A stretch of 64,000 nt of DNA from Polytrichum commune (Eukaryota; Streptophyta; Polytrichopsida; Polytrichales; Polytrichaceae). The stretch spans positions 10,877,001-10,941,000 of the forward strand of contig OX485807.1 of NCBI GenBank assembly GCA_950295325.1, written 5' to 3'. The notes beneath the pieces are model-generated. The model had not been told where the DNA came from and made no database searches. It worked only from the letters and a program-made list of their open reading frames with translations. Below are positions 26,567 through 56,100 of the stretch, piece by piece. The translations under genes were made by a program, and so were the position numbers. Position 1 is the first letter of the stretch. Each line of letters begins with the position of its first letter.

Positions 26567-27114
26567 TGTCGTGTAAATAGCGATCGTGTGTCACTGCAGC
26601 TCGAGTACCAACCACCACTAACAAACAACACTAAAACATAGCAAAGTAACACATAAACAACACACCTCGACAGAGAAGGAAGAGAGTAGAACACTCACAA
26701 TAGCTCTAAATCTCTCTTCAAATGCACACAACTAGTCAAGCTATCTCTCACTCCACCAAGGGAGAATCCAAGAGTGTAAGTAGGGGAAGAAGAACTCAAG
26801 ATTTATTGCAAAATCATGCAATCTACACCTCACACAAGCTCTCTCCACACACTAACTCACAAGACTTGACTTGGCAAGAATGCCAAGCCAAGGAGGAGGC
26901 TCCTCACTTAGGAGCCTTCCTCTCCACATCTAGATTCATCCATCCAAATTTAGATGGATGAAATCCAACGGATAAGGTGCGGCCGTCGACGCCGCATACC
27001 GTGACAGCTGTCGTGTAAATAGCGATCGTGTGTCACTGCAGCTCGAGTACCAACCACCACTAACAAACAACACTAAAACATAGCAAAGTAGCACATAAGC
27101 AACACACCTCGACA
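26567..27114 (-). repeat. 3' LTR region with flanking 106-bp direct repeats
   Basis: In element orientation the order is: 27114-27009, a 106-bp unit starting TGTCGAGGTGTG and ending CACGACA; two bases; 27006-26673, the segment homologous to the 5' LTR start (TGTCACGGTATGCGG); then 26672-26567, the same 106-bp unit again with two differences. The last unit ends the element next to the TSD. The polypurine tract directly precedes the first unit. The 106-bp unit itself has TG...CA ends. The 5' LTR has neither copy, so the two LTRs are not colinear. Confidence 0.75.
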
Positions 27115-27128
27115 TGCCCCCCCTCAGC
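27115..27128 (-). promoter_or_regulatory. Polypurine tract of the methyltransferase-bearing element
   Basis: On the minus strand CAGCTGAGGGGGGGCA runs directly into TGTCGAGGTGTG. This is the expected position of a plus-strand primer, immediately upstream of the 3' LTR. It supports 27114 as the LTR start in this copy. Confidence 0.6.
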
Positions 27129-27401: not shown

Positions 27402-29003
27402 TTAAGTACGATTGGTGGAAGCACCAAGTACCGAAGATCCTCGACAGCGAGGACAACTCCACTGTCCAGATGGTAGAGAAGTCAAGGGTGGCCTCAAGCA
27501 TACCATGTGTCAACCGCGTTGACACTGATCACACAAGAGCATAGTAGCCGCTCCTTTCTTCTCTCCACACACAAAACATGGAAGACCGTCTGGCACGACG
27601 GCCAGTTCAAGATGAACTGTACCCTCAATAGGTAGATGACATGGGGCACAATTTTTGGAATGCTCGCGACATTCCCTGCCATCCTTGCCTTCCAACAACA
27701 AACCACTCGGCAACACCTCCTTCACCCGAAGGATAGTACGCCCCGCCCTGACATCCAATGTCGTAGGCGCCTCACGTTGGAGGTAGACATAATCCCCTTG
27801 CCGAAATCTCCGCAACTGAGGTCGGTAAGCACCACTACGAATGCGTGCATAACGCAATGTGTCACGGTGCTGAGCAATGGACAAATTCTCCATGGCCATA
27901 GGCATGGCCCTCTGGAAGAATTGAGCCCGCTCCTGCAAACACTCTGCCCAAAGGTCTGGGTCATCCAAGTTCACAACAGGAGCTAGTTTTTCCCGAATAG
28001 AACTCGGGAGTATAGGCTCACGTTCATACAATAATTGATACGGGCTGTAGGATGCCAAAGAGGCCTGCCTACTAAATCGATAACCCATAGCAATCCAAGG
28101 CAACATAAGGTCCCAATCCCGGTGGCTTCCCCGAAGTAATCCATACTTCCTCAAGCCACGCTTGGTTGTCTGAACAACCCGTTCAACCAAGCCATCTGCC
28201 TCCGGAAGATCCCGAGAGGTGGTGCGGTGATCTATGAGCGCATTAGTGCACAACTCCTCAAAAACACCAAGGAACTCCCTCCCTTGGTCCGTCAACACCT
28301 CAGCCGGTGCTCCAAAACGTGCCAACACACGATCCAAAAAGGCGGCCGCGGCCAACTCTGCAGAGTTTTGGGGTAAAGCAACAAGCTCAATCCACTTGCT
28401 AAAATGCTCCACCATCACCAACACGTACTTTGCTCCACGTGGCGTGACAACCAACGGTCCCACAAAGTCTAGCGACCAACGGTAGCCCAATCCCATGATA
28501 GGTAAGGGCTGTAACTAAGGTGACAAGGTGTTAAAGCTAGACCTGACCCGGTCACAAACTTCACACCTCCCGACATAAGCAGCCACCTGTTGATACATGC
28601 CAGTTCACCAATATTGGCCACGCAACATCGAATGTGTCCTGCGTATGCCAAAATGGCCAAGTTCCTCGTGTACTTGTCGCACCAAGGAGGTCCTCTGATC
28701 CGGCCTAGGAACAATACGCCTTGTCCCATCTGGCCACAATTGAAATAACAAACCGTTCTCCCAACGGAACCTTGTTATTCGATGTCCAATCCTATCCCTT
28801 TCCATTGCCGAAATAGACAAAGGAAAGGTACCCTGTTGAAGCTTATGCAATACGGGAAGATCCTCCCATATATCCATAATAGCTTGAGGCCGATCAGTCT
28901 CATCATCCGAACCCTGTATCGGAATCTCAACAGATGCACCAGAAAATAAAGTAGTAGGCAGCCGCGTGCCAACCTGGAACCGCCTCTCGATCACAATCTC
29001 CAT
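27402..29003 (-). pseudogene. Integrase with C-terminal PHD finger (3' part of pol)
   Basis: Frame 28605-29003 holds a linker and the integrase zinc finger (HEELGHFGIRRTH, then CEVCDRV past a stop). Frame 27510-28496 holds the catalytic core with the acidic triad visible: Asp10 (SLDFVGPL), Asp70 (LTDQGREF) and Glu105 (ADGLVERV). The C-terminal region (RRFRQGDYVYL) follows. The last part is a PHD finger: CFVC, 11 residues, CDQC, then after a TGA the expected His and Cys (HMVC), then CPRC, giving C4-H-C3 zinc ligands. A Trp next to the His is replaced by the TGA at 27510. Pol then ends at a TAA at 27402. Other stops are TGA at 28605 and TAG at 28515. Chromoviruses usually carry a chromodomain at this position. 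A PHD finger normally reads histone H3 tails, so it may guide integration; that is inference. Confidence 0.85.
27438..27580 (-). other. PHD finger domain at the integrase C-terminus
   Basis: Zinc ligands in order are Cys-x2-Cys (CFVC), Cys-x2-Cys (CDQC), His-x2-Cys (HMVC) and Cys-x2-Cys (CPRC). A conserved Trp sits two residues before the last Cys pair (GQWSCPRC), as PHD fingers require. One in-frame TGA (27510-27512) lies between the second Cys pair and the His, at a position where PHD fingers usually have Trp, consistent with TGG to TGA. Confidence 0.85.
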
Positions 29004-30528
29004 GCCATCTGGCCCCGGTCAAGTCCTCATCTGAAGGATTTGGATTGCGTGAGAGTCCATCTGCATCCATGTTGGTAATCCCAGTACGGTGTACCACCTC
29101 AAAATCATACTCCTGGAGCAATAAAGCCCACCTGGCAAGCTTGCTAGTAAGCTTATCCGACTCCATGAGCCACCGTAACGGCTGATGGTCAGTCACTAAA
29201 GTAAAGTGCTGACCATAAAGATACGGCCGAAAATGGGCAATAGCCCATACCGCCGCTAATGCTTCTCCCTCGTAGGATGAATAATTAACCTCCGCCGTGT
29301 TATTGCTTCGCGAAGCGTAAGCAACAACATACTCCCGACTAAAATCATCCTTCTGAGTGAGAACTGCTCCCAAACCCAATAAACTCCAATCTGTATGCAA
29401 CTGGAAAGATTTGGAGACATCTAGACGTCGAAGCACTGGAGCCGTACCCAGTTTCTGCTTCAATGTCTCAAACGCCTGTTGTTGCTCACGACCCCAAGTC
29501 CACGGTTGGTCCTTGCTCGTGAGAATGGTGAGAGGCTTGGCGATCAAGCTAAAATTCTTGACGAATCGCCGATAGTAATTCGCCAAGCCCAAGAAAGCAC
29601 AAAGTCTCGGCACATCAACCTGTGCCGGAATCTTTTGCAAGGCGTCCACCTTAGTTTGTTGTACCCCAAGACCTCCTAGAACAATCATATGCCCCAGATA
29701 TGCCAGCCGGTCATGGAAAAACTTGCACTTGCCGTGGTGCAAGCATAATCCCCACCGCTGCAACCGCTCAAAAACAGCTTGAAGATGCCTTACATGCTCC
29801 TGTGGTGTTATACTGAAAATGATAACGTCATCAATGTAACACCGAGCAAAGGGTAAGCCAGAGAGAACTTGGTCCATCACTCTCTGAAACTCCGCAGGTG
29901 CATTCTTCAGGCCAAACGGAAGAAACTTCCAATGGTAAAGTTGATCCTTTCCATCTTGATCAACTCCCCAGAATGCGGTTTTCACTCAGTCTCCCACAAG
30001 TAATGGGAGTTGGTGATAGCCGGATCTCAAGTCCAACGTGCTAAAAACTCGAGCAAATCCGAGGGCATCGAACAACTCCTCCGGGATTGGCATGGGATAT
30101 CGATCCAACTTGGTTTTTCGATTAACTGGACGGTAATCCCCGCACATCCGTTTCTCCGTCCAATTGCCAAAGATATCATTTTTCGATGGCATAACCGTAG
30201 CACAAGCATACTCCCCGTTGGAAAGTTCGATTAGCCTTGCTGCCAAAAGCTCTCGGCAACGAGCCTGAACGCCGCTCCGCTCGGAAACACTGAGCCTATA
30301 AGGTCTCCGAAAAATGGGATGGTCGTCCTCCAACTGAATGTGGATGGGTTTTCCTTTATAACCTTCAAGATCCTGAAGGCTAAAAGCAAAACATCTACGG
30401 TACGAGCGAATAAATGCTCGTACCTTCCGTGCCTCAGCACCAGTGAGACAAGGGCCTAATTCAAGTGGCCAATCATCAAACTCTGTAGTCTCCGTCTCCA
30501 CCAAAGGAGAACCACCTGATGCTGGCAC
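28927..30528 (-). pseudogene. Reverse transcriptase and RNase H of the gypsy element
   Basis: Two in-frame blocks, 29986-30528 and 28927-29985, are separated by a single TGA (29986-29988). The first holds the RT start (MCGDYRPVNRKT, FSTLDLRSGYHQ with the first catalytic Asp). The second holds FLPFGLKNAPAEFQRVM and the YIDD catalytic box at residues 50-53, then the connection (FLGLANYYRRFV). RNase H follows with its acidic residues (LHTDWS, SYEGEALAAVWA, LVTDHQPLRWL, NMDADGLSRNP). The frame is lost near 29015, where a one-base shift moves pol into the 28605-29003 frame. Domain order and sequence are those of Ty3/gypsy. The catalytic residues are intact despite the stop. Confidence 0.92.
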
Positions 30529-30540
30529 AGACTCTAATTG

Positions 30541-32307
30541 CTAATGAGAAGAGGGGGCATTAACCATGCCCCCAGTCTCGGTGCTAGTACTAGAGTCTGA
30601 CATTTCTTCATCACCACCAATATGTGATGATGAAGCCACCACCGGAGGCGAAGAAACCGAAGCAGTGTAAAAATGTTGAGCTCGAAGCTCCTCCATCACA
30701 TGCTGCTCGAATTGAAAAACTCGTTCGGCTTCTCCAACCATGGCGTGAATTCCCTCTTCCATGGGTGTGGACCGCTGTGCCCCCTGACCAAAGTCCTCTG
30801 CCCCCAGAGACAACCACTGGTCACCACGATGCCTTTGCAATGAAAGGCATAAAGCAACAGTCCATACCATAGTATGAAGATCCATAGCTTGGCCCAACAC
30901 GAAGCGTCGTTGGCCCTCAGAAAGGCCGGGAGCTGCGGTGGTGCCAGTGCGGAATCCCATGGCACGTTCCCGTTCGTCAGCCAATGGTTCGGTGTGGGTT
31001 TTGGTGTGAACATCCCACACCATACCCGGCCCCCTATCGCGGAAAACGAATGACTGTGGAAACGTCATAAATGTGGGAAAGGCCCGCCGTGGTGCCCCCA
31101 TTTTGTTGACCAATGCCAACGGGGGTAAATCATCTCGAATAACCGGCAAAGAAGTCCGGTTTGGATCCAACATGTCATCCACCTTTTGATCAAAAGGTGG
31201 AGGCAGTGCAGAAAATGTTGCAGCTAAAGTAGATGACGGTGTGAGGTTGGTCCAAATCCACCGAGGTCGGTGGGCATAAGAACCAATGCTCGCGGCATCC
31301 ACAAAAATGGGATCTCCAAGGTGTTGACGAACATAATAATCGCCTTCCAACACCTTGTCCCGAGAGTCTCCCAACAAAGGTACATTCTCGAAGATATACC
31401 CTGGAGGGGAAGGTTGGTGGGTAAACCACCACTGCATAAGCCGGATGAGGTCCCAGAAAAGGCTAGACCTGGGATCCTCTAAACCTCGGCCTGCTCCAGC
31501 ACGTGAGTGGCCTTGGCATGGCCATCCCGCAATCACCATATCCACCGGGCCCAAGTGTCGTAAGTCGGCCTCACTGATGAGTGTAACATCACGAGGGAGA
31601 CGTAAAAAACACCCACAAATGGCAGTTGGAGGTAACTGCTGGGGGTACAATACCATCAACTGGTGAAGATGGTGACGAGCCACACGGGTGGACACTTGAG
31701 AGTTGTCCACATAGACATACCATCTAACCGTGAGGTCAGCCTCCAATACGGCCGCTAAGCCTGTGCCGATGCCTCCAAACAGTTCCACCAAAATAATCCC
31801 CGCGTCTGGCGGTTGCCATAAAATGGGATCTGCCAATGCCGAGAGGACACCCGGTATGATCGGTGTCCTAGGAGTAAGAGAATGAACAATATCCTCGCAC
31901 CTCCGAAATAGCTCGGCGGAATCACGCCAAGGAGGAAGGGGATCCTTGGGATGGCGCACCAATGCATTTTTAGGTGCCATATCCCGTTGATCGTCTGTAC
32001 TCCCCATGAATGCCAATGACTCCTCCAACAATGCGGAACCATAAGGCAATGTGTCCACCATAGCACCACATCCAAAAACCATAGATAATGGTGCTATGGT
32101 CGCGGCCGCCGCGAAAGCTACGGGAATAAGTTCCCTGCGGCCATCCCCAGCCGACCAACCTGGTCGGATCCACGCCTCCTCAGTCCAGTTGTCCAAACCA
32201 AAACCAAGAGGGTAAAGTGCTTGCTGACCAACTAAAATGTCATAGTTGGTCGCATTTGTCACCGCACACCTAAGAAGAAGAGGTGCGGGTGAATCTCCAG
32301 GCTTCAC
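30541..32307 (-). CDS. C5-cytosine DNA methyltransferase domain within pol, between protease and RT
   Basis: A 588-codon uninterrupted frame in phase with protease and RT. Residues 1-50 finish the protease region (NYDILVGQQALYPLG). The methyltransferase spans about residues 172-485. Motif I is ELFGGIGTG (177-181, S-adenosylmethionine binding). Motif IV is GWPCQGHSRAG with the catalytic Cys264. Motif VI is FENVPLL (Glu307). Motif VIII is HRPRW (347-349). Motif IX is about 446-470, and motif X is GQAMDLHTM (472-475). Motifs run in the standard I-to-X order, unlike the permuted plant DRM enzymes. A target-recognition stretch of about 90 residues separates VIII from IX. A Ser/Glu-rich tail follows. 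All core residues for 5-methylcytosine formation are present. The current frame is bounded by a TAA at 32326 and a TAG at 30541. It could be translated only by readthrough or from an internal start. Confidence 0.9.
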   Translation of the reverse strand: MKPGDSPAPLLLRCAVTNATNYDILVGQQALYPLGFGLDNWTEEAWIRPGWSAGDGRRELIPVAFAAAATIAPLSMVFGCGAMVDTLPYGSALLEESLAFMGSTDDQRDMAPKNALVRHPKDPLPPWRDSAELFRRCEDIVHSLTPRTPIIPGVLSALADPILWQPPDAGIILVELFGGIGTGLAAVLEADLTVRWYVYVDNSQVSTRVARHHLHQLMVLYPQQLPPTAICGCFLRLPRDVTLISEADLRHLGPVDMVIAGWPCQGHSRAGAGRGLEDPRSSLFWDLIRLMQWWFTHQPSPPGYIFENVPLLGDSRDKVLEGDYYVRQHLGDPIFVDAASIGSYAHRPRWIWTNLTPSSTLAATFSALPPPFDQKVDDMLDPNRTSLPVIRDDLPPLALVNKMGAPRRAFPTFMTFPQSFVFRDRGPGMVWDVHTKTHTEPLADERERAMGFRTGTTAAPGLSEGQRRFVLGQAMDLHTMVWTVALCLSLQRHRGDQWLSLGAEDFGQGAQRSTPMEEGIHAMVGEAERVFQFEQHVMEELRAQHFYTASVSSPPVVASSSHIGGDEEMSDSSTSTETGGMVNAPSSH

Positions 32308-32328
32308 TCGGAAGCTAAGCTGTAATTA

Positions 32329-33052
32329 TGGCTCTCGAGTATAACCCATGGCTCGCTCCACGTGACCAATGGATGTGACAATGGTGAATGGACAGGGAGC
32401 CAAATCCTCGGCCGTCAACCTCAACTCTTGGGCAAGCCTCTTGCCGATCATAACTGGTTGTGCCCCTGAATCCATCATCACACAACGGGGAGCAACCCGA
32501 GTAGCATTGCTCCCAGTGCGACTGACCACCAAAATTCCGGTATTATTCACCATACGCACAACACCGGGTCGAATGCCGCGGCGCTCGCGGACAGGTCTAG
32601 CAGCGACATCAGACAGATAGGCTGCACCCGCGGATACTGGTGAGTCATAAGACGTGGTCGGTGCCTTGTCATCTGAGGCGTGTGCGTCAAAAGACGCAAT
32701 GGTCTCTGCCGCAAATCTCGCACGCCGTTTGGCCACATCCTCAGGATCTTCAGAAGCAGGGATGTCCATAGTGGCTTGAGCCACGGTCAGAGAAGGTAAT
32801 GATGCCTTCCCTTCCAAAATCCTACCTGCTAAGTGAAAAACCTTAGCAGGTTGGAACTCTGGCGATGACCACTCCATGGCCGTGAACAAAGGTGTGTGCA
32901 ACACCTTGGATGCCAACGTGTGCGCCACATCAGTCGCTGAATGTGAAACCTCATCGTTTGGATGACGACCACTGACAGATTGGACGGCATCGGCCAATCC
33001 AAAAGATAATGGTAGTCGTGCCTGACCAATTTGGTCCGCGGGCGCATTGTCC
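32329..33052 (-). pseudogene. Retropepsin-type aspartic protease region of pol
   Basis: This frame (best seen at 32326-32997) carries an N-terminal spacer, then the retropepsin core: MMDSGAQPVMIG holds the catalytic Asp-Ser-Gly, followed by IVTSIGHVERAMGY. The closing flap side (YDILVGQQAL) lies beyond a single TAA at 32326-32328 in the next frame block. Upstream, the frame joins gag only if an 8-bp tandem duplication near 33055-33075 is discounted. Length and motif match gypsy proteases. Confidence 0.8.
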
Positions 33053-34637
33053 CGAGCTCGCGAGCTCGCGAGCTTGCCACATATTCATTTGTAGTCAAAG
33101 GTATGGATTGTGACACGGCTTGAGCACGTGTCACGGCCGTGGAACTCACCACCTCGCCCGAGGCTCCGAACATATAATAATCTGGAGTGGAAGAACTAGC
33201 CTGAGCTCCGGAGGAAGACGGTGAGGCCAAGATTTGGCCGAATGACGCCAAGCTTTTGAACCTCTCCTCCATGACTCCAATCTTCGCCTCCAACGTCTTC
33301 TCCCGGTCGGAAGAAGGATGTTTCTCAGGATGGAGAGCAAAGCAGTTTTCTATCGCGTGATTGTTCCGCCCACAATGGGAACACTTCAACTGCTTGGGTA
33401 ACTGATTACCCGTCATCCCCTTCGCCGAGCCCTTAGCGGGAACAAATGGTTTCCGCTTCGGAGTAGTGACGGTCTGGGCTTGCCTTTGCTTCGAAGGACA
33501 GTCCTTCTTAGCATGGCCGGCCTGCCCACAAGACCAACAATACATGGTCTTGTCTACCTCGGCCTCCGCCAATCCCGCAGCCGCAACCGGAACTCTTCGG
33601 GATTTGCTAGAATCCACAAGCAAGGACACCAAATCAATGGCATCGTGCTGACATAATGCACGATCACACTGCTCCACCACGGCGAATGCCTCTGCGAGTG
33701 TCGCTCGACCATCAAACTCCATGATGATCCTGGGTAGCGCCAAGTCAAGGAGACGTTTGTCAATCTTTGACAAAAACACCTTCACCAACTGACTTTCCGC
33801 GAACACACCTCCAGATTCTCTGGCAAACCTCGCCAACCTCGTATACATGGTACGAGGTGTATCATCCTTATCCCGTCTGAAATCTTGTATCCGCTGCATT
33901 TGGTCACGACGGAAGCCTCCGTACTCCCCCTGTAGATGCAGCTCAAATGCCCGCAATGGCTCAAAATCTGGCGGAGCCCCTAAAGAGGCTAAAGCCACTT
34001 GGGTGGCCATGGCATAACGCGAGAGTAGAAGAACTGGGCTCGACGTACTCGCCGCAGTGGGAACAGGACCCGTAGCCCTCGGCTCATCAGGAGGAGCTCC
34101 CTCCACATCCACCACATAACCTCCCTTCGGTACCTCCGTCTTGACATCCGGAACGGCCATGAAACTGGAAGCTGCGCCTTCCTTCAATGCGGATACCAAC
34201 TCAACCCGAGTCTCCCAGTATCGCTCCACCTGGCGCAGCTCCATCCAATGAGCCTCTGTCCACTGCTCATAAGTTTGGAGAGCTTCATGCTCCAAATGCT
34301 GAGGCAGAAGCTCAAACGCATACCAATCGTTAAAATTGGTATTGCGTTGGCGTTTCTCTCGCATCCACGTACGAAACTGGATTTTCCAGTCTTGCAGAGA
34401 AATGGTCCCTGCTCGACCGAAAAACCGGTCCCGTATCCCTCCCCTAGTCTCCTCCTCCATATCGTCAAAGGTTCCCACCCACAGGACGTGAGACCGAGTG
34501 ATAGTCCCCCACGCCGAAGTAGGCTGAAAAGCCTCGTTGGGTGCTACCACTGGTTCAACGTCCAAGAGGTCCGAGGGATGACCTTCCGATGCTCCTGGGG
34601 ACAGAGAACGATAGTGTTGAGTACGAGTTGTAACCAT
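33053..34637 (-). CDS. Gag polyprotein with two CCHC-type zinc knuckles
   Basis: Starts at ATG 34635-34637 (MVTTRTQHYRSL). Residues about 60-330 form a helical gag core, including FRTWMREKRQRNTNFNDWYA and a retrotransposon-gag segment (DDTPRTMYTRLARFAR, FLSKIDKRLLDLALP). The first knuckle is CWSCGQAGHAKKDC (about 33498-33544), the second CSHCGRNNHAIENC (about 33342-33383). A short coiled-coil-like stretch (EKTLEAKIGVMEERFKSLAS) follows. The frame then runs out of phase at the duplicated GAGCTCGC near 33055-33075 and ends in a spurious tail at 32829. Gag binds element RNA and builds the particle. Confidence 0.88.
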
Positions 34638-36633
34638 AAACCCACAATGGGATGGTCACCGAATCAACAACCCAAATGAATTAGTATCCAGGTACAAAGA
34701 GAAAAAGGGTCAAAGGCAACCTGCACCTGCAACCACCACCAAAATTTATGGTCTGCTGGTCATTAACCCAGCCTCACCACAAGTGAAAACAAGCACCGCC
34801 CACTTGGTGCACAAACAAAGGTCCCGTCGGTCATTAATCCGACCTTACCTCCACAGTACCCTATCACAATCTAGGACTACACAAAATGGGGCAGTGCTAG
34901 AACACTCCAGCACTACAGCCCGCCACAGGGGAAGGTACCAAAACAAAATACAAGGAACAATGCAAGAACAACACTAGATCCTCTTCCCCAAAACAACATT
35001 CAAGCAGAAATTGAAAACGACCGCAACCAACTGGCACCCGCCTGCAGTTGGTGGTCAAAATAAAAAGCCCCTGTTGCTTAAGAAAAGAAATTGCATAAGC
35101 ACATCGCTCATCTAGTGCTACAACATAAAATCCTCTCCTCCCCGAAGTCCCGGGAATTTGTGTTTCTAAACACAATTCGCCCTTAACAATGATATTGTTA
35201 AGTCGAATGGTAATTCCATGTACCAATTTGCCCCACCCCTCGGCAATTCCCTAAACAATCTATAAACTTATCCCAAAATAAAATTTACAACAACAATCAA
35301 CCTATCCCCAAATAAATCCTAACACTCACAACATCCTAAAATGATTCATAACGCCCACAAATTGCCCCTAAATAAATCCAATACCCACAACCCGCCTCAA
35401 TTAAATCCAATGCCCACCACCTGCCCCTAAATAAATTCAACGATCACAACCCGCCCCTAATCCTTTTAAGCAAAAGGGAAAAAAATGAAAATCCCACTAT
35501 GCCAAGTACCTCTATCAAGTCGAGGTGAAAGGTGAATAAACCAATCGCAAATGGCCGCGATCCAACGCCCTCCGCGTGTTGCCGAATGCGTTCGCGAACC
35601 TCTCCCGCAATGCTCCACCCTCCCGAATCCCAAAAAGCCTTAATGGTCCATAAGGCATTTAGAAACGCCGGTATCGGATCGTCTCCGAGTCCCCAAATTT
35701 GTTCTTGATTAATGGCAATAACCTTGGCAACAATACTTGTCCAAAGGTTTGGTTCACAAAGCCAAGACTATATAGGAAACTCTATAGAGATAGAGATATA
35801 TTGAAATATATCTACATAATATTTTTGAAAATAAAAATAAAAATAATTTATTATTATTATTTTGGTATAAAAAAAAATGAAGAATGGGGGAGGGTTGCTG
35901 GCTGCTGCAGGGCCCCGAAAAGGGGGGGTGGGGGGGGGGAACCACGTGGCGGGGGGGGGGGCGGGGGGTAGGGTTTAGCTGGAGGGGGAGGGGGTAACCT
36001 AGGGGATCTAGGCTAGGAGGGGGGACCGGGGTGGGGGTTCGCCTAGGGAATCTAGGCTAGGGGAGGGAGGAAGGAGGGGCAACCTCCTTAAATGGGGGAA
36101 GGGAGGTAGGTGACGAGGGGGGGAAGAGGAAGGTAGGGAAGGAAGGGAGGAGGAAGGGGGGGAGGAGGGGCCGCTAGGCAGGGTTGGCCGCTGCCCGGGC
36201 ACCGGCGGGCAGGCCGCCGGTTGCCGCCGAGTGGGGGCGGCCCAGCAAGGCCAGGAGCTCCGGCTCCGGAAGCCAACTCTTGCCCTCCTCCTCCCTAAAT
36301 TTTTTTTTTAAAAGATTTTAAATAAATCTTACTTGAATCCGCATCAAGAGTTCTCCTTCACAACTTAATGGCATGAATTCGTGCTTGTAAGCAACCAAAT
36401 GATACAAAATTCCGTGGGAAATTCAAAAATTTCTCACCACAATTCAAAATGATGTGCACACATCACAAGCACACATTTTTCCTCCTTGTTTCTCCGCAAT
36501 TCCGCAATGTTTGTCTTCCTTCACTCCAAAATCTCGCAACCACTTGTCCTCACACTCTTTCTCGAGTGTTGGAGCTCAAGATTTGAAGAAAAGAGAAAGA
36601 ATCATGCACATTCTTGCCAAGTGAGAAGAAAGA
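34638..36633 (-). other. Leader between 5' LTR start and gag
   Basis: Non-coding. It includes the rest of the 5' LTR, whose inner end I could not place, and a leader of at least 1 kb. Near 34755-34860 it contains GGTCATTAACCC and GTCGGTCATTAATCCGAC, shared in similar form with 54868-54945 inside another LTR insertion. No convincing tRNA primer site was identified. A G-rich block at 35884-36180 is listed separately. Confidence 0.5.
35884..36180 (+). repeat. G-rich block in the retrotransposon leader/LTR
   Basis: The top strand has many runs of three to twelve G (for example GGGGGGGTGGGGGGGGGG near 35920 and further runs to 36180). There is also a short duplicated motif, CTAGGGGATCTAGGCTAGGA / CTAGGGAATCTAGGCTAGGG. 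It could form G-quadruplexes in the DNA; in element orientation the transcript would be C-rich. Pro/Arg/Gly-rich open frames across it are composition artefacts. Confidence 0.6.
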
Positions 36634-36956
36634 AAGTAGAACAGTCACAATAGCTCTAAATCTCTCTTCAAATGCATACAACTAGTCAAGCTATCTCTCA
36701 CTCCACCAAGGGAGAATCCAAGAGTGTAAGTAGGGGAAGAAGAACTCAAGATTTATTGCAAAATCATGCAATCTACACCTCACACAAGCTCTCTCCACAC
36801 ACTAGCTCACAAGACTTGACTTGGCAAGAATGCCAAGCCAAGGAGGAGGCTCCTCACTTAGGAGCCTTCCTCTCCACATCTAGATTCATCCATCCAAATC
36901 TAGATGAATGAAATCCAACGGATAAGGTGCGGCCGTCGACGCCGCATACCGTGACA
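36624..36956 (-). repeat. 5' LTR start segment
   Basis: Matches 26673-27006 with about five differences in 324 aligned bases. In element orientation it starts TGTCACGGTATGCGG at 36956, directly next to the TCAA target duplication. Beyond 36624 the sequence departs from the 3' LTR, which instead switches to the 106-bp unit. Confidence 0.8.
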
Positions 36957-48650: not shown

Positions 48651-48760
48651 AATACGAATATCCTCAAAGGATGATGAAGTGAACTCATGAGGTGTCGGAG
48701 TTCCAATGTTCATATGTTCAATACCTTCCACCAACAAGTCTTCCGGGAAACTTAGTAGTG

Positions 48761-48767
48761 AGAGCGT

Positions 48768-48844
<77 letters not shown>

Positions 48845-48845
48845 T
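48761..48845 (+). repeat. 7-bp microsatellite (AGAGCGG), about 12 units
   Basis: Almost perfect tandem AGAGCGG, with one T variant in the first unit, ending at a degenerate GGTGATTGGAGAGCGA. Purine-only on the top strand apart from C. Confidence 0.85.
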
Positions 48846-49337
48846 GATTGGAGAGCGACAAAATTTAGATTTTATTGGGTAATTTTAGGAGAAGCCGTGC
48901 CTATTTCTGTGGATTTAGGGGTAGTTTGAATTCAATTTGTTGGAAAGGCACCCCATTCCCGTGGACATAAGAAACCTGAATTGTTCGAGAAACCAACGGA
49001 TCCTATAGGCGTGGAAGATTCCATTTGTTCTCAAACATCCTAGAGTCTAGGTTTGAAATGTTTCATATTAAATTAGGGCTGACGTCACCACTTGAAATCA
49101 AACATAAACATATGATGAACAATGTAAGTGTACATAAATGATTTCCACAAAGTGATAAATTGCGCCAAGTAGGTTGGGTACTATTTCCAAGTACGATTAG
49201 ATTTCAATAATTACCATACACAAAATATTTGATTGGCCGAGAAAATGTTCATGAAGATAGGTGCCAAACTCAAGACTTACAAAAATGTGTATTCAGTTCA
49301 AGTAGCTATATACAACCATCCTCTACTTTATTTCCAT

Positions 49338-49878: not shown

Positions 49879-52656
49879 ATGATGAGGTACACAAATGAAC
49901 TCAAAATCCAAGTAAATTTTGGCCAAGAACTTAACCTCAACCCAAAGACTCAAGAATGCTTAAAATTCACAAGAGTCTTAAACTCACACACAAGAGCATA
50001 CAATTTGAAATTTTTGGCCAAGGCCTCAACCCCATATACAAGAGCTAACAATCACAAACTTTTGGCCAATGCCTTAACCTCACACACAAGAGCCACTAAT
50101 CTGATATGTTTGGCCAAGGCTTTAACCTCATATACAAGAGCCCACAATCTGAAATATTTGGCCAAGGCCTTAACATCACATTCAAAAGCCTACAATCTGA
50201 AATTGTTGGCCAAGGCCTTAACCTCACACACAAGAGCCAACAATCTGAAATTTTTGGGCAAGGGCTTAACCTCACACACAAGAGCCACTAATCTGATATG
50301 TTTGGGCAAGGGCTTAACCTTACACACAAGAGCCACTAATCTGATATGTTTGGCCAAGGACTTAACCTCATATACAAGAGCCTACAATCACAAATTTTTG
50401 GCCAAGCCCTTAACCTCATATAGAAGAGGATACAATCACAAATTTTTGGCCAAGGCCTTAACCTCACATACAAGAGCCACTGATCTGATATGTTTGGCCA
50501 AGGACTTAACCTCATATACAAGAGCCTACAATCACAAATTTTTGGCCAAGCCCTTAACCTCATATAGAAAAGGATACAATCACAAATTTTTGGCCAAGGC
50601 CTTAACCTCACATATAAGAGCCCCTAATCTGATATGTTTGGCCAAGGCCTTAACCTCACATACAAGAGGCTACAATAACAAGTTTTTGGCCAAGGCCTCA
50701 ACCCCATATACAAGATCTAACAATCACAAACTTTTGGCCAATGCCTTAACCTCACACACAAGGGCCACTAATCTGATATGTTTGGCCAAGGCTTTAACCT
50801 CATATACAAGAGCCCACAATCTGAAATATTTGGCCAAGGCCTTAACATCACATTCAAAAGCCTACAATCTGAAATTGTTGGCCAAGGCCTTAACCTCACA
50901 CACAAGAGCCAACAATCTGAAATTTTTGGCCAAGGCCTCAACACCATATACAAGAGCTAACAATCTAAAATTTTTGGGCAAGGGCTTAACCTCACACACA
51001 AGAGCCCCTAATCTGATATGTTTGGCCAAGGCCTTAACCTCACATACAAGAGGCTACAATAACAAATGTTTGGCCAAGGCCTCAACCCCATCTACAAGAG
51101 CTAACAATCACAAACTTTTGGCCAATGCCTTAACCTCACACACAAGAGCCACTAATATGATATGTTTAGCCAAGGCTTTAACCTCATATACAAGAGCCCA
51201 CAATCTGAAATATTTGGCCAAGGCCTTAACATCACATTCAAAAGCCTACAATCTGAAATTGTTGGCCAAGGCCTTAACCTCACACACAAGAGCCAACAAT
51301 CTGAAATTTTTGGCCAAGGCCTCAACACCATATACAAGAGCTAACAATCTAAAATTTTTGGGCAAGGGCTTAACCTCACACACAAGAGCCCCTAATCTGA
51401 TATGTTTGGCCAAGGCCTCAACCCCATCTACAAGAGCTAACAATCACAAACTTTTGGCCAATGCCTTAACCTCACACACAAGAGCCACTAATCTGATATG
51501 TTTGGCCAAGGCTTTAACCTCATATACAAGAGCCCACAATCTGAAATATTTGGCCAAGGCCTTAACATCACATTCAAAAGCCTACAATCTGAAATTGTTG
51601 GCCAAGGCCTTAACCTCACACACAAGAGCCAACAATCTGAAATTTTTGGGCAAGGGCTTAACCTCACACACAAGAGCCACTAATCTGATATGTTTGGGCA
51701 AGGGCTTAACCTTACACACAAGAGCCACTAATCTGATATGTTTGGCCAAGGACTTAACCTCATATACAAGAGCCTACAATCACAAATTTTTGGCCAAGCC
51801 CTTAACCTCATATAGAAGAGGATACAATCACAAATTTTTGGCCAAGGCCTTAACCTCACATACAAGAGCCACTGATCTGATATGTTTGGCCAAGGACTTA
51901 ACCTCATATACAAGAGCCTACAATCACAAATTTTTGGCCAAGCCCTTAACCTCATATAGAAGAGGATACAATCACAAATTTTTGGCCAAGGCCTTAACCT
52001 CACATACAAGAGCCACTGATCTGATATGTTTGGCCAAGGACTTAACCTCATATACAAGAGCCTACAATCACAAATTTTTGGCCAAGCCCTTAACCTCATA
52101 TAGAAGAGGATACAATCACAAATTTTTGGCCAAGGCCTTAACCTCACATATAAGAGCCCCTAATCTGATATGTTTGGCCAAGGCCTTAACCTCACATACA
52201 AGAGGCTACAATAACAAGTTTTTGGCCAAGGCCTCAACCCCATATACAAGATCTAACAATCACAAACTTTTGGCCAATGCCTTAACCTCACACACAAGGG
52301 CCACTAATCTGATATGTTTGGCCAAGGCTTTAACCTCATATACAAGAGCCCACAATCTGAAATATTTGGCCAAGGCCTTAACATCACATTCAAAAGCCTA
52401 CAATCTGAAATTGTTGGCCAAGGCCTTAACCTCACACACAAGAGCCCACAATCTGAAATATTTGGCCAAGGCCTTAACATCACATTCAAAAGCCTACAAT
52501 CTGAAATTGTTGGCCAAGGCCTTAACCTCACACACAAGAGCCAACAATCTGAAATTTTTGGCCAAGGCCTCAACACCATATACAAGATCTAACAATCTGA
52601 AATCTTTGGGCAAGGGCTTAACCTCACACACAAGAGCCACTAATCTGATATGTTAG
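49879..52656 (+). other. 925-codon ORF through the 48-bp minisatellite (coding status doubtful)
   Basis: Starts ATGATG at 49879, reads 30 codons of non-repeat, then 16-residue repeats of the form LAKALTSHTRANNLKF to a TAG at 52654 caused by one T-to-A change in TGTTTGGCC. The repeat is basic (Lys, Arg, His) with no acidic residues. Because 48 is a multiple of three, a frame without a stop in the unit stays open automatically. Minus-strand frames are open over parts too. I see no promoter, signal peptide or family match, so it is listed as a structural feature, not a gene. Confidence 0.3.
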
Positions 52657-52750
52657 GCCAAGGACTTAACCTCACAAACAAGAGCCTACAATCTGAAATT
52701 TTTGGCCAAGGGCTTAACCTCAAAAACAAGAGCATAGAATCTGAAATTTT
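49920..52750 (+). repeat. 48-bp minisatellite, about 59 units
   Basis: The consensus unit is GCCAAGGCCTTAACCTCACA followed by CACAAGAGCCAACAATCTGA and AATTTTTG (48 bp). Variants are shared in blocks: units starting ACCCCATATACAAGA recur at about 50031, 50703, 51087, 51423 and 52239, at spacings of 14, 8, 7 and 17 whole units. Segmental duplications of several units therefore built it. No unit-length changes are seen over 2.7 kb. Confidence 0.92.
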
Positions 52751-53179
52751 TGGGCCATTAAAAGTGAGAGCATCCTAAAATCCTAACCAAATCAACACCT
52801 GAATCCAACTCAAGAATAAGGACTACACATCTAGGGCAATCGGAAGTGAGAGCATTCACCTGAAACAAGGTTGACAATCTTGTAGAAACAGAGTTGAGAG
52901 TCTGAGCACTCAATAGGTTGGAGTAGCACAATGCTTGGGCTTGAAAGTATTACATGCCGAAATAGGAGAGCACGTGCTTGGAGCGGCACAATGTGAAAAG
53001 GGTGCACGGGGATGTGACCATAATTGGAAGGAGATATGCATTCAATGCATTACATTAATGGGATGAATCTGAACTTAACTAGGGGATCTTAACTAATATT
53101 GCACATAATGACAGAGGATGCAATATATAACATTATGGCTGTAATGCCACATGCAAAAATCTGGGATGAACCCCATACC

Positions 53180-56100
53180 CGGGGACCCTCTCGAAACCGA
53201 GAGGGTCCACAAGTAGTCCAACCACTCAAGTTGACAAAATCTAATTACCTACCTAATCCACATACATTCATGTAAAAATGAATACTATCCATAATATCCC
53301 CACCTTGACCCTCTCGGTTCCGAGAGGGTCTCACTGTCAAGGATACACAAACGTTTTCAACCTAAGTACCTACGTAATACACATACATGCACGTACAGAA
53401 GGCACATAATAGTTGTGAAAATCTGGTCCTTACTATCACAACCTACACCCGAGAGGGTATCACTCTCATGCATATACAAAAATTTCAAACGTAAGTACCC
53501 ACCTAGACCACATACATTCACATCCACAAGGCACATCATAGTTGTAAAAATCTGGTCCATACTATCCCAACATTGACCCTCTCGGTTCCGAGAGGGTGGG
53601 CCTCTTATGAATACACAAACATTAACAACCTAAGTACCTACCTAGTCCACATACATACACATAGACAAGCCAAGTCATAGTTGTGAAAATCTGGTCCATA
53701 CTATCCCCAACTTGACCCTCTCGGTTCCGAGAGGGTCTCACTTTCATGCACACACAAAAGTTTTGAACATGAATAACTACTTGGTCCAAATACATTCACA
53801 TAAACAAGCCAAATCAGAGTTGTCGAAATGTGGTCCACACTATCCCAACCTCGACCCTCTCGGTTCCGAGAGGGTCTCCCTCTCATGCACTCGTAAACAT
53901 TTTCAACATGAATTACTAGTTGGTCCACATACATTCACATACAAAAGCCACATCATAGTTTTCAAAATCTGGTCCATACTAAACCCATCCTAGACACTGT
54001 CTGTTCCGAGAGGGTCTCATCCTAGTGCACAAACAAAACTTTTCAACATGAACTAATAATTGGTCCACAAACAAACATATACACAAGACAAATCATAGTT
54101 GACAAAATCTGGTCCATTGTGGTACTTTTGGGCCACCCCCTTTCGAGGGAGCCTAAAAGTATCACACAAGCCCTTCGGTGAAGGTGGCCTGCATTTGCAG
54201 GCGCCCAAGCCGAACCCGGATGATAGGTGTATAACGTGAGTAGTTAGATTTTTAAGGGAGATTAAATATGCGTCGTAGTACCTCCGGAGGTTAGGCCTTA
54301 GTTTTTTACTACTGTGGCTTTAAACTCCACTAACCAATTTCATATCTAGTTCTAACCTTAACCTACACCTATTCTACGCGCAGACGCACCAGCCTTGAAA
54401 CCAAGGCAATCCTAATTTGTGAATTGGGATGGTTCTGATACACCCAACCGGGTGTGACTCATACCACCCTAACTCAACGAACGGAATAACGACAATTTGA
54501 TGGACCATTCAATTCTTCCTATTTCTTTATTTAGTTCTATTTAGTTTTCTAAGCGGGGGAACTTGGCCTAAGTCCCACCCTTCACACAAATTCCTTCTTA
54601 ATTACTTATTTTTGTTTGCACGTCCTAACTTACTACATTAACATATTAGGCATCACCCCTTACCTCGGGTCTCTTGCCAACAAGGCTTTACGATTTATTT
54701 TGTATGTTTTGATTGTTAAATGTGTTTACACTGGATAGACCACGAAATGCAACTCAATGGAACCAGGGTGACGGGCGACCTGTAGGTTCAACCTGTTGCG
54801 CAATCTTCATAAATTGGGGCCATTACTCCCAATCTATGGGGCCAACAACATAATAGTGGATTCGCGGGTCATTAACCCCACCTTTCCACCAACAACATTC
54901 AGAGTGGTCGTGTCGGTGATTAATCCGACTTACCACACACGAAACTTGCTAATAAATGAAGCTACTACCACAAAACATACCAAGGGCCCCGAAAACAATG
55001 GAATTGGGTACTCCCTTGGCGGTCAAGTGGTCAAGCCACTTGACCTTACGAGATAGGTGAGTGGGTTTAGAGATGCGTACCTTAGCCGTGCTCCCTCCAA
55101 TCCTAAATGGAAGGCTTAAGGTTAGTTAATTTACCTCAATTTTCCTCGGTTGATTTGGGCTTGATGTAGGCCGAGCCGCTACCTCCTTCCTTGCTCCACT
55201 TTCCGAGCGTCGACCTTGCCTCCTTCTTTGTAACTAGTTTGGTAGTAAGCGTACCTTAGTTAACAATTAAAATATAAAGTGTTATTCTGCCCTGTAATTT
55301 AATCCTAAGCATAATATTTATACTTAGTGCACCAAATTATCTTTCCAATGATCTAAAAATCACTCTAATCGGATAAGAAATGCAAAAGTTATGAGGGTTG
55401 GAAGTGTGAGGTCGATTCAACCGACCCTTCCAACCCACCTATCTACCTTCTAACTTCAAGAATTCATAGCACATTCCTTACTACTTGGATCTAGGCTTTC
55501 CTTATACCATTGGAAAGCTATGAACAAGCTCTAACTAGAAAAAATTATGACATCAGCAGGTTAAGCTAATAGAAATTCAGCGGACTCCTTGTAACACAGC
55601 AGTCAATCAAGAAGGCTTAAACTATGTATCTCGCCTTCAACAATTCATATCTAATTCAAATCTTAGTCAAATCAAACGTTCTATATGACCCTGGAGAGAT
55701 ATTAAAAAGATGTATTTGATAAAAATATGTGATTAGAAAGGTAAGCCGAAGTGAACCCAGCAGGTCCTCTGTAATGCAGCAGTCAACCAAAAGTTCTCAA
55801 ACTATGTGTCCCATCTTGCACAATTCATATCTAATTCAAATCATGCTCAAATCAAATGTTCTAAGCCATTTTGGAAAGCTACACAAAAGTTCTACTTGGG
55901 AAAAATATAATTTCTTGGAATTAAAATTCCTATTGGGCTCGCAGGTCTGATCCAGCAGCCGCTACCCACAAGACCACCCAGTTTTTCTACTCCATCTTTG
56001 AAAATCCATAACTAATTGTCATCTCAACCAAATCACAAATGGGAAACGGCTATGGATAGCTATATGAAATCTCTCTAAGAGAAAAATGATAAGTATCTTG

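Follow-up and report, generated by a model that had tools for sequence, protein, structure and literature searches.

A Ty3/gypsy-like retrotransposon family of Polytrichum commune with a DNMT3-class methyltransferase on the Gag side of a conserved stop and DIRS-like split repeats

We describe a retrotransposon in a 64,000-nucleotide stretch of the Polytrichum commune genome (assembly GCA_950295325.1, contig OX485807.1, positions 10,877,001 to 10,941,000 of the forward strand, hereafter the window), in which an earlier prediction made from the sequence alone (the original prediction) had placed a cytosine-C5 DNA methyltransferase (MT) inside the pol frame of a Ty3/gypsy element. The MT is present, but it belongs to the Gag-side frame and not to pol. 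In copies with open frames, a first open reading frame (ORF1) of 1366 or 1386 codons comprises gag, protease and MT and is terminated by a stop, after which a second frame (ORF2) continues in the same phase with reverse transcriptase (RT), RNase H, integrase and a PHD finger. The copy in the window, which self-comparison places on the minus strand from 36956 down to 26567, is a dead member of a multicopy Ty3/gypsy-like family whose repeats follow the order known from DIRS elements and which encodes a DDE integrase.

The family was delineated by searching the genome (407.8 Mb, 64 contigs) with the PF00145 profile, which gave at least 123 scored matches (353 candidates). We inspected 71 of the 123 scored matches, 10 of them together with their ends, 60 in the region around the MT, and in addition the window copy; the sample was picked by hand, beginning with the 10 copies whose frames of 1366 or 1386 codons are open and proceeding to top and lower rows of the match list and finally to the window copy. 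All but one of the 71, counting the window copy itself, resemble the window MT, the single exception (L060) being a host gene of DRM type with motifs that by eye are rearranged. At least three families can be told apart, namely that of the window, one about 57% identical to it in the MT ORF, and one 42% identical that includes L068. Copy number and common layout rule out a single chimeric insertion, one of the two outcomes that the original prediction had named as its own refutation.

The position of the MT relative to RT is set by the stop between them. An RT anchor was found in 65 of the 70 copies, and a TAG stands exactly 21 codons upstream of it in 64 of these, with the contexts TAG CAA TCA (31 copies), TAG CAA TTA (26), TAG CAG TTA (5), TAG CAA CCA (1) and TAG CAA TCT (1), so that TAG-CAR is found in 64/64 and TAG-CAR-YYA in 63/64. 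In the remaining anchored copy a different, more upstream stop is met first, and among the five copies with no RT anchor four (L028, L036, L041 and L068) have TAG CAR YYA while the sequence of L057 does not reach the site. The context UAG-CAR-YYA marks leaky stops of the tobacco mosaic virus, or tobamovirus, type. The stop, lying between two in-frame coding regions, fits this consensus, and readthrough is predicted; its conserved position and context rule out a random product of decay. Because a stop of leaky type separates ORF1 and ORF2, the MT would be expected at the level of Gag, with RT and integrase amounting to a few per cent of that level. ORF2 shows some further damage among the 10 copies taken with their ends, being broken again in L011 and L015 and opening later in L003. 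In relatives from other data sets ORF1 also seems to stop behind the MT in P0002, P0003, P0008 and P0013; the stop is not universal, since the MT continues into RT without one in P0035, P0066 and the gene models P0042 and P0096.

The domain order of Gag, protease, RT-RNase H and DDE integrase is of the Ty3/gypsy type, with the protease and zinc-knuckle matches falling below the Pfam cut-offs. All features of the window copy lie on the minus strand. The gag part of ORF1 with its zinc knuckle (scoring 19.1 bits where the cut-off is 20.8) occupies 32829..34637 and is here in a different phase from the protease part (32326..32997, with DSGA; 17.7 bits against a cut-off of 24.3). The MT and the C-terminal tail of ORF1 make up the ORF at 30541..32307, with the catalytic domain at about 30853-31791 and the TAG, followed by CAA TTA and kept across copies, at 30541..30543. 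The RT and RNase H part of ORF2 follows at 28927..30528 with one internal stop, the RT ORF with YIDD covering 28927-29985, and then the integrase part with the DDE core at 27510..28496 and, recognised by sequence, the PHD finger at its C terminus at 27444..27578, again with one internal stop. Protease upstream and RT downstream of the MT, as originally predicted, are thus in place. The one continuous pol frame that had been described was not confirmed. A single phase is common to the ORFs of protease, MT and RT, but gag and integrase are in another, and stops delimit the MT ORF, with one just upstream. The lesions of this copy are the phase change between gag and protease, the stop in RT, the phase change before the integrase and the stop within the PHD finger.

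That the domain is a methyltransferase is confirmed. PF00145, the search proposed along with the original prediction, matches the window MT with an E value of 6e-12, above the curated cut-off, and the best relatives with solved structures are DNMT3A (E 7e-9) and DNMT3B (E 4e-8), so that by sequence and fold the MT is nearest to DNMT3. The ORF and its named motifs were read correctly; motifs I, IV, VI, VIII and X are all present in the unrearranged order, and the element is indeed a retrotransposon carrying a cytosine-C5 methyltransferase, of a kind published for a charophyte. Motifs IV, VI and VIII are intact in nearly all aligned rows outside Closterium, P0018 being short of one motif VIII arginine. 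Two Closterium relatives (P0040 and P0042) read ARWECQG in place of GWPCQG in motif IV, with glutamate for proline beside the catalytic cysteine.

Codon comparisons indicate purifying selection on the MT domain. The two main subfamilies, with 16 copies each, give a dN/dS of 0.21 and 0.38 for the MT, values biased toward the low side as only copies with an open MT entered (32 of the 58 with the motif I pattern), and 0.82 and 0.71 for the tail behind it. Among copies that are open in RT as well, the MT and RT values are 0.22 and 0.15 in one subfamily (9 copies) and 0.35 and 0.33 in the other (14 copies). L062 and L077 were dropped as frameshifted, and the comparison across subfamilies was not used because the synonymous rate between them is saturated. 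A retained MT could in principle serve a job other than methylation, for instance in binding nucleic acids or assembling the particle, and the altered motif IV of some relatives, as in Closterium, would be in keeping with this. The motifs are kept in nearly all other aligned rows, however, and the selection on the domain also speaks against such a role, which we consider quite unlikely. The CpG content of 0.72 in the element and 0.53 outside it does not support the idea that copies were heavily methylated in the past.

The second unusual feature of the family is its repeats, which, like the self-primer and the PHD finger described below, had escaped the original prediction. Self-BLAST of the window shows a 334-bp repeat A1 at the left end of the element (36623..36956, beginning TGTCACGG), a 106-bp repeat B1 at 27009..27114, a second A of 334 bp (A2, 26673..27006) that starts two bases (GC) after B1, and a 106-bp B2 at 26567..26672 that forms the right end, closes with CACGACA and is followed by TTGA, the target duplication that also flanks A1. 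A1 and A2 are 97.9% identical and B1 and B2 98.1%. Directly before B1 lies a G-rich sequence resembling a polypurine tract (GAGGGGGGGCA, 27115..27125), and the other subfamily has a comparable G run at this place. Among the 11 copies with both ends the order A-coding-B-A-B occurs in nine and A-coding-B in two; all 11 begin with TGTC, end with GACA and are flanked by an exact 4-bp target duplication (TTGA, ACTT, AACG, GAAG, TTAT, TCTT, TAGC, CATC, ATTG, ACTT and GATG). The family therefore lacks the two identical terminal long terminal repeats (LTRs) by which Ty3/gypsy elements are defined and has the split direct repeats by which DIRS/PAT elements are defined. Pfam scans of the window and of open copies found no tyrosine recombinase and a DDE integrase instead, and the TGTC...GACA ends with a 4-bp duplication are such as a DDE integrase makes. 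Tyrosine-recombinase elements are not known to make such target duplications.

This combination raises the question of how the ends of the complementary DNA (cDNA) are made. If reverse transcription follows its ordinary course, the repeated unit, from purine tract to primer site, should be B plus A, yet the integrated ends fall within this expected unit, at the B/A junction. With its two intervening bases the junction reads GACA-GC-TGTC and looks like one that would be processed by an integrase on both strands. Random cutting of a circle with tandem repeats predicts A-B-A-coding-B as often as A-coding-B-A-B, and the counts of zero and nine among the 11 copies make a directed or linear route likelier. 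The two A-coding-B copies (L001/L002 and L003/L004) each have one A, one B and exact target duplications, and they may stem from a single-repeat form or from later recombination between B1 and B2. The latter origin is what an explanation of the split repeats by recombination between conventional LTRs, rather than by a feature of replication, can draw upon. Yet the same arrangement is found in two subfamilies whose MT ORFs are about 57% identical, the A and B boundaries coincide with primer site and purine tract, the target duplications are exact, and the repeats of KnitGypsy-Dnmt3 are likewise described as DIRS-like (PMC5890265); we regard an origin of the split repeats from conventional LTRs as very improbable.

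The repeats also bear on how recently the family has been active. In eight of the nine copies that have both A repeats these are 98.8-100% identical, from which it follows that the family moved lately. This sits poorly with the idea that the element methylates itself as a form of self-restraint, so that the host keeps its copy number tolerable, an idea that further requires the host lineage as such to benefit. It is one of the options put forward by de Mendoza et al. in the text at hand (PMC5890265), and the persistence of many copies would agree with it, but we give it a low probability, comparable to that of a non-methylating role.

Reverse transcription in this family is probably self-primed, as in Tf1. 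The site directly after A1, at 36609..36622 in the window copy, complements a stretch inside A in 7/7 copies tested, always from the first base; in the window copy this is the 14-nt stretch at 36819..36832, and the complement extends over 15 nt in L019 and over 13 nt in each of the five subfamily 2 copies. The complementary letters differ between the two subfamilies and change in step. For comparison, 300 other 40-nt stretches taken from the internal region of L019 gave a longest complement of 11 nt. Conventional priming by a tRNA is disfavoured, as none of the seven copies has TGG directly after A1 and all have the self-complement instead, although no tRNA scan was made.

The integrase ends in a PHD finger, found with PF00628 in two copies (6e-11 in L020 and 9e-11), and the zinc-binding and core domains of the integrase are recognised by Pfam in a copy other than that of the window. 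In a structure comparison the PHD part of a model of the integrase C terminus resembles UHRF1, BAZ2A/B, BHC80 and ATXR5; the overall pTM of the model is 0.39 and only its PHD part was used, and the longer top matches (PHF1 and the UHRF1 tandem domains) have an rmsd over 12 A. These proteins count as readers of unmodified H3, a preference that the titles of their entries bear out in part. Since the modelled finger resembles such readers, it is a reasonable guess that integration is aimed at chromatin without K4 methylation. A PHD finger on the integrase may also suggest that the MT acts after integration, on flanking DNA or the host genome, where it would silence adjacent genes, rival elements or genes of host defence rather than methylate cDNA. 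DNMT3-class enzymes are de novo methylators, which would suit this role, and effects on the host methylome are discussed by de Mendoza et al. (PMC5890265, text available in part). The MT, however, is made as part of Gag, and in the two copies scanned with Pfam no chromatin reader was detected in ORF1. Gag products are moreover expected mainly in particles, and we hold an action after integration to be rather unlikely. The MT is most likely a particle protein that would methylate the element's own cDNA.

Relatives of the element extend beyond Polytrichum. Named MT matches come from Marchantia polymorpha, Calypogeia fissa and Closterium, and the integrase-PHD relatives among the best 120 of at least 307 come from Klebsormidium nitens, Haematococcus lacustris, a Chrzof1 record (presumably Chromochloris), Marchantia and Calypogeia; viral contigs gave no match on scanning. 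Two Klebsormidium integrases with a PHD finger (P0106 and P0133) are relatives of the integrase of the window family, P0139 is 79% identical to a Klebsormidium integrase-PHD and probably shares a contig with the MT protein P0084, and Klebsormidium is probably among the hosts of relatives of the MT-bearing element. The residues behind the PHD finger number 105-137 in P0062, P0067 and P0070, whereas P0217, the Chrzof1 relative, has 388. A second gene order, with the MT between RNase H and integrase-PHD, could be pieced together from RNase H-MT (P0068 and P0101) and MT-integrase records (P0059, P0062, P0065, P0067 and P0070), and the MT stands upstream of the integrase in 11 of the 120 length-limited matches listed in a profile search. 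In the MT tree one branch with support 100/99 splits the 18 rows of the protease-MT-RT order from the 12 of the RNase H-MT-integrase order; the outside row is a single DNMT3A fragment on a long branch, the third-family row (124 profile positions) was dropped, and the domain of P0071 was cut too long (661 aa).

Capture of an MT by a Gypsy element is in itself known. KnitGypsy-Dnmt3 of Klebsormidium nitens comprises Gypsy elements whose Pol ORF includes Dnmt3 (de Mendoza et al., 2018, PMC5890265, here and below as far as the text was available), and its legend gives the repeats as arranged in a DIRS element, for which the same paper states the order A-coding region-B-A-B. It shares with the window family the Gypsy domains, a Dnmt3-class MT in the polyprotein, DIRS-like repeats and purifying selection on the MT, and differs in the place of the MT, in the Pol ORF by the wording of the paper and in the Gag-side ORF1 here; P0066, seemingly of the Klebsormidium-type clade, likewise runs from MT into RT without the stop of the window family. 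The words gag, PHD, readthrough, Marchantia and Physcomitrella do not occur in the main text of that paper. SymbioDIRS-Dnmt3 and SymbioLINE-Dnmt are also retrotransposons with a cytosine MT, and the SymbioDIRS enzymes methylate CG in yeast (PMC5890265), but they rely on a tyrosine recombinase or LINE machinery where the window family has a DDE integrase and 4-bp target duplications. DIRS/PAT elements share the order A-coding-B-A-B and differ in the same two respects, no tyrosine recombinase appearing in our Pfam scans. Tf1/Sushi elements and the plant Tcn1 chromoviruses have in common with the family a predicted self-priming and a polyprotein that includes a module for chromatin binding (Neumann et al., 2019, PMC6317226, in the part available), which in them is a chromodomain and here a PHD finger, accompanied by MT and split repeats; the words methyltransferase and PHD do not occur in the main text of that article. 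A 2019 article states, in the portion accessible, that MT-bearing retroelements are absent from land plants, which the Marchantia and Calypogeia matches disfavour for bryophytes, and a 2025 paper, likewise seen in part, again gives such elements for streptophytes and dinoflagellates. The 2025 paper also confines DRM to streptophytes, with which the host gene of DRM type at L060 agrees. Within the literature searched, of which figures and supplements lay outside the scope and some texts were available in part, we found nothing on MT-bearing retrotransposons of bryophytes, nor on the leaky stop, the self-primer, the PHD finger or the second gene order in the MT-element lineage.

Elsewhere in the window a 48-bp tandem repeat of 57.9 copies at 49977-52753 (plus strand) contains one open frame of 925 codons (49879-52656) that encodes a 16-residue repeat like LAKALTSHTRAYNLK; the array is probably a minisatellite that is open by chance. 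Two further tandem arrays lie at 53288-54117 (139/278-bp period, containing CCGAGAGGGT) and at 48760-48857 (7-bp GAGAGCG).

Taken together, our best explanation runs as follows. Readthrough at a few per cent would yield Gag-Pol, so that the MT would ride on every Gag molecule and be packaged in many copies per particle. The 5' part of the element RNA would pair with the site after A1 and prime reverse transcription as in Tf1, and the packaged MT would then methylate the element's own cDNA, so that a new copy would arrive methylated and be taken for resident DNA or be protected. The DDE integrase would cut at the B/A junction (GACA-GC-TGTC), which implies a cDNA intermediate that is end-joined or internally processed, and the PHD finger may steer integration to chromatin without H3K4 methylation. 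That all of these steps hold jointly we consider an evenly balanced proposition. More tentatively, and with more doubt than belief, the family may belong to a Gypsy-like group spread through the green lineage that pairs an epigenetic writer with a chromatin reader, in whose bryophyte-type members a DNMT3-class MT, made at Gag stoichiometry by way of a leaky stop of tobamovirus type, would methylate cDNA in the particle, the PHD-tipped integrase would read unmodified H3, and the cDNA would be end-joined and then cut at the internal B/A site. A repeat order of DIRS type would then have a DDE integrase at its service.

DNA methylation normally silences transposons, and it is a puzzle that an element should keep, under purifying selection, what is by prediction a working de novo methyltransferase. 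The place of the MT on the Gag side makes the otherwise vague idea of self-methylation testable, as the enzyme should then abound in the particles of the element.
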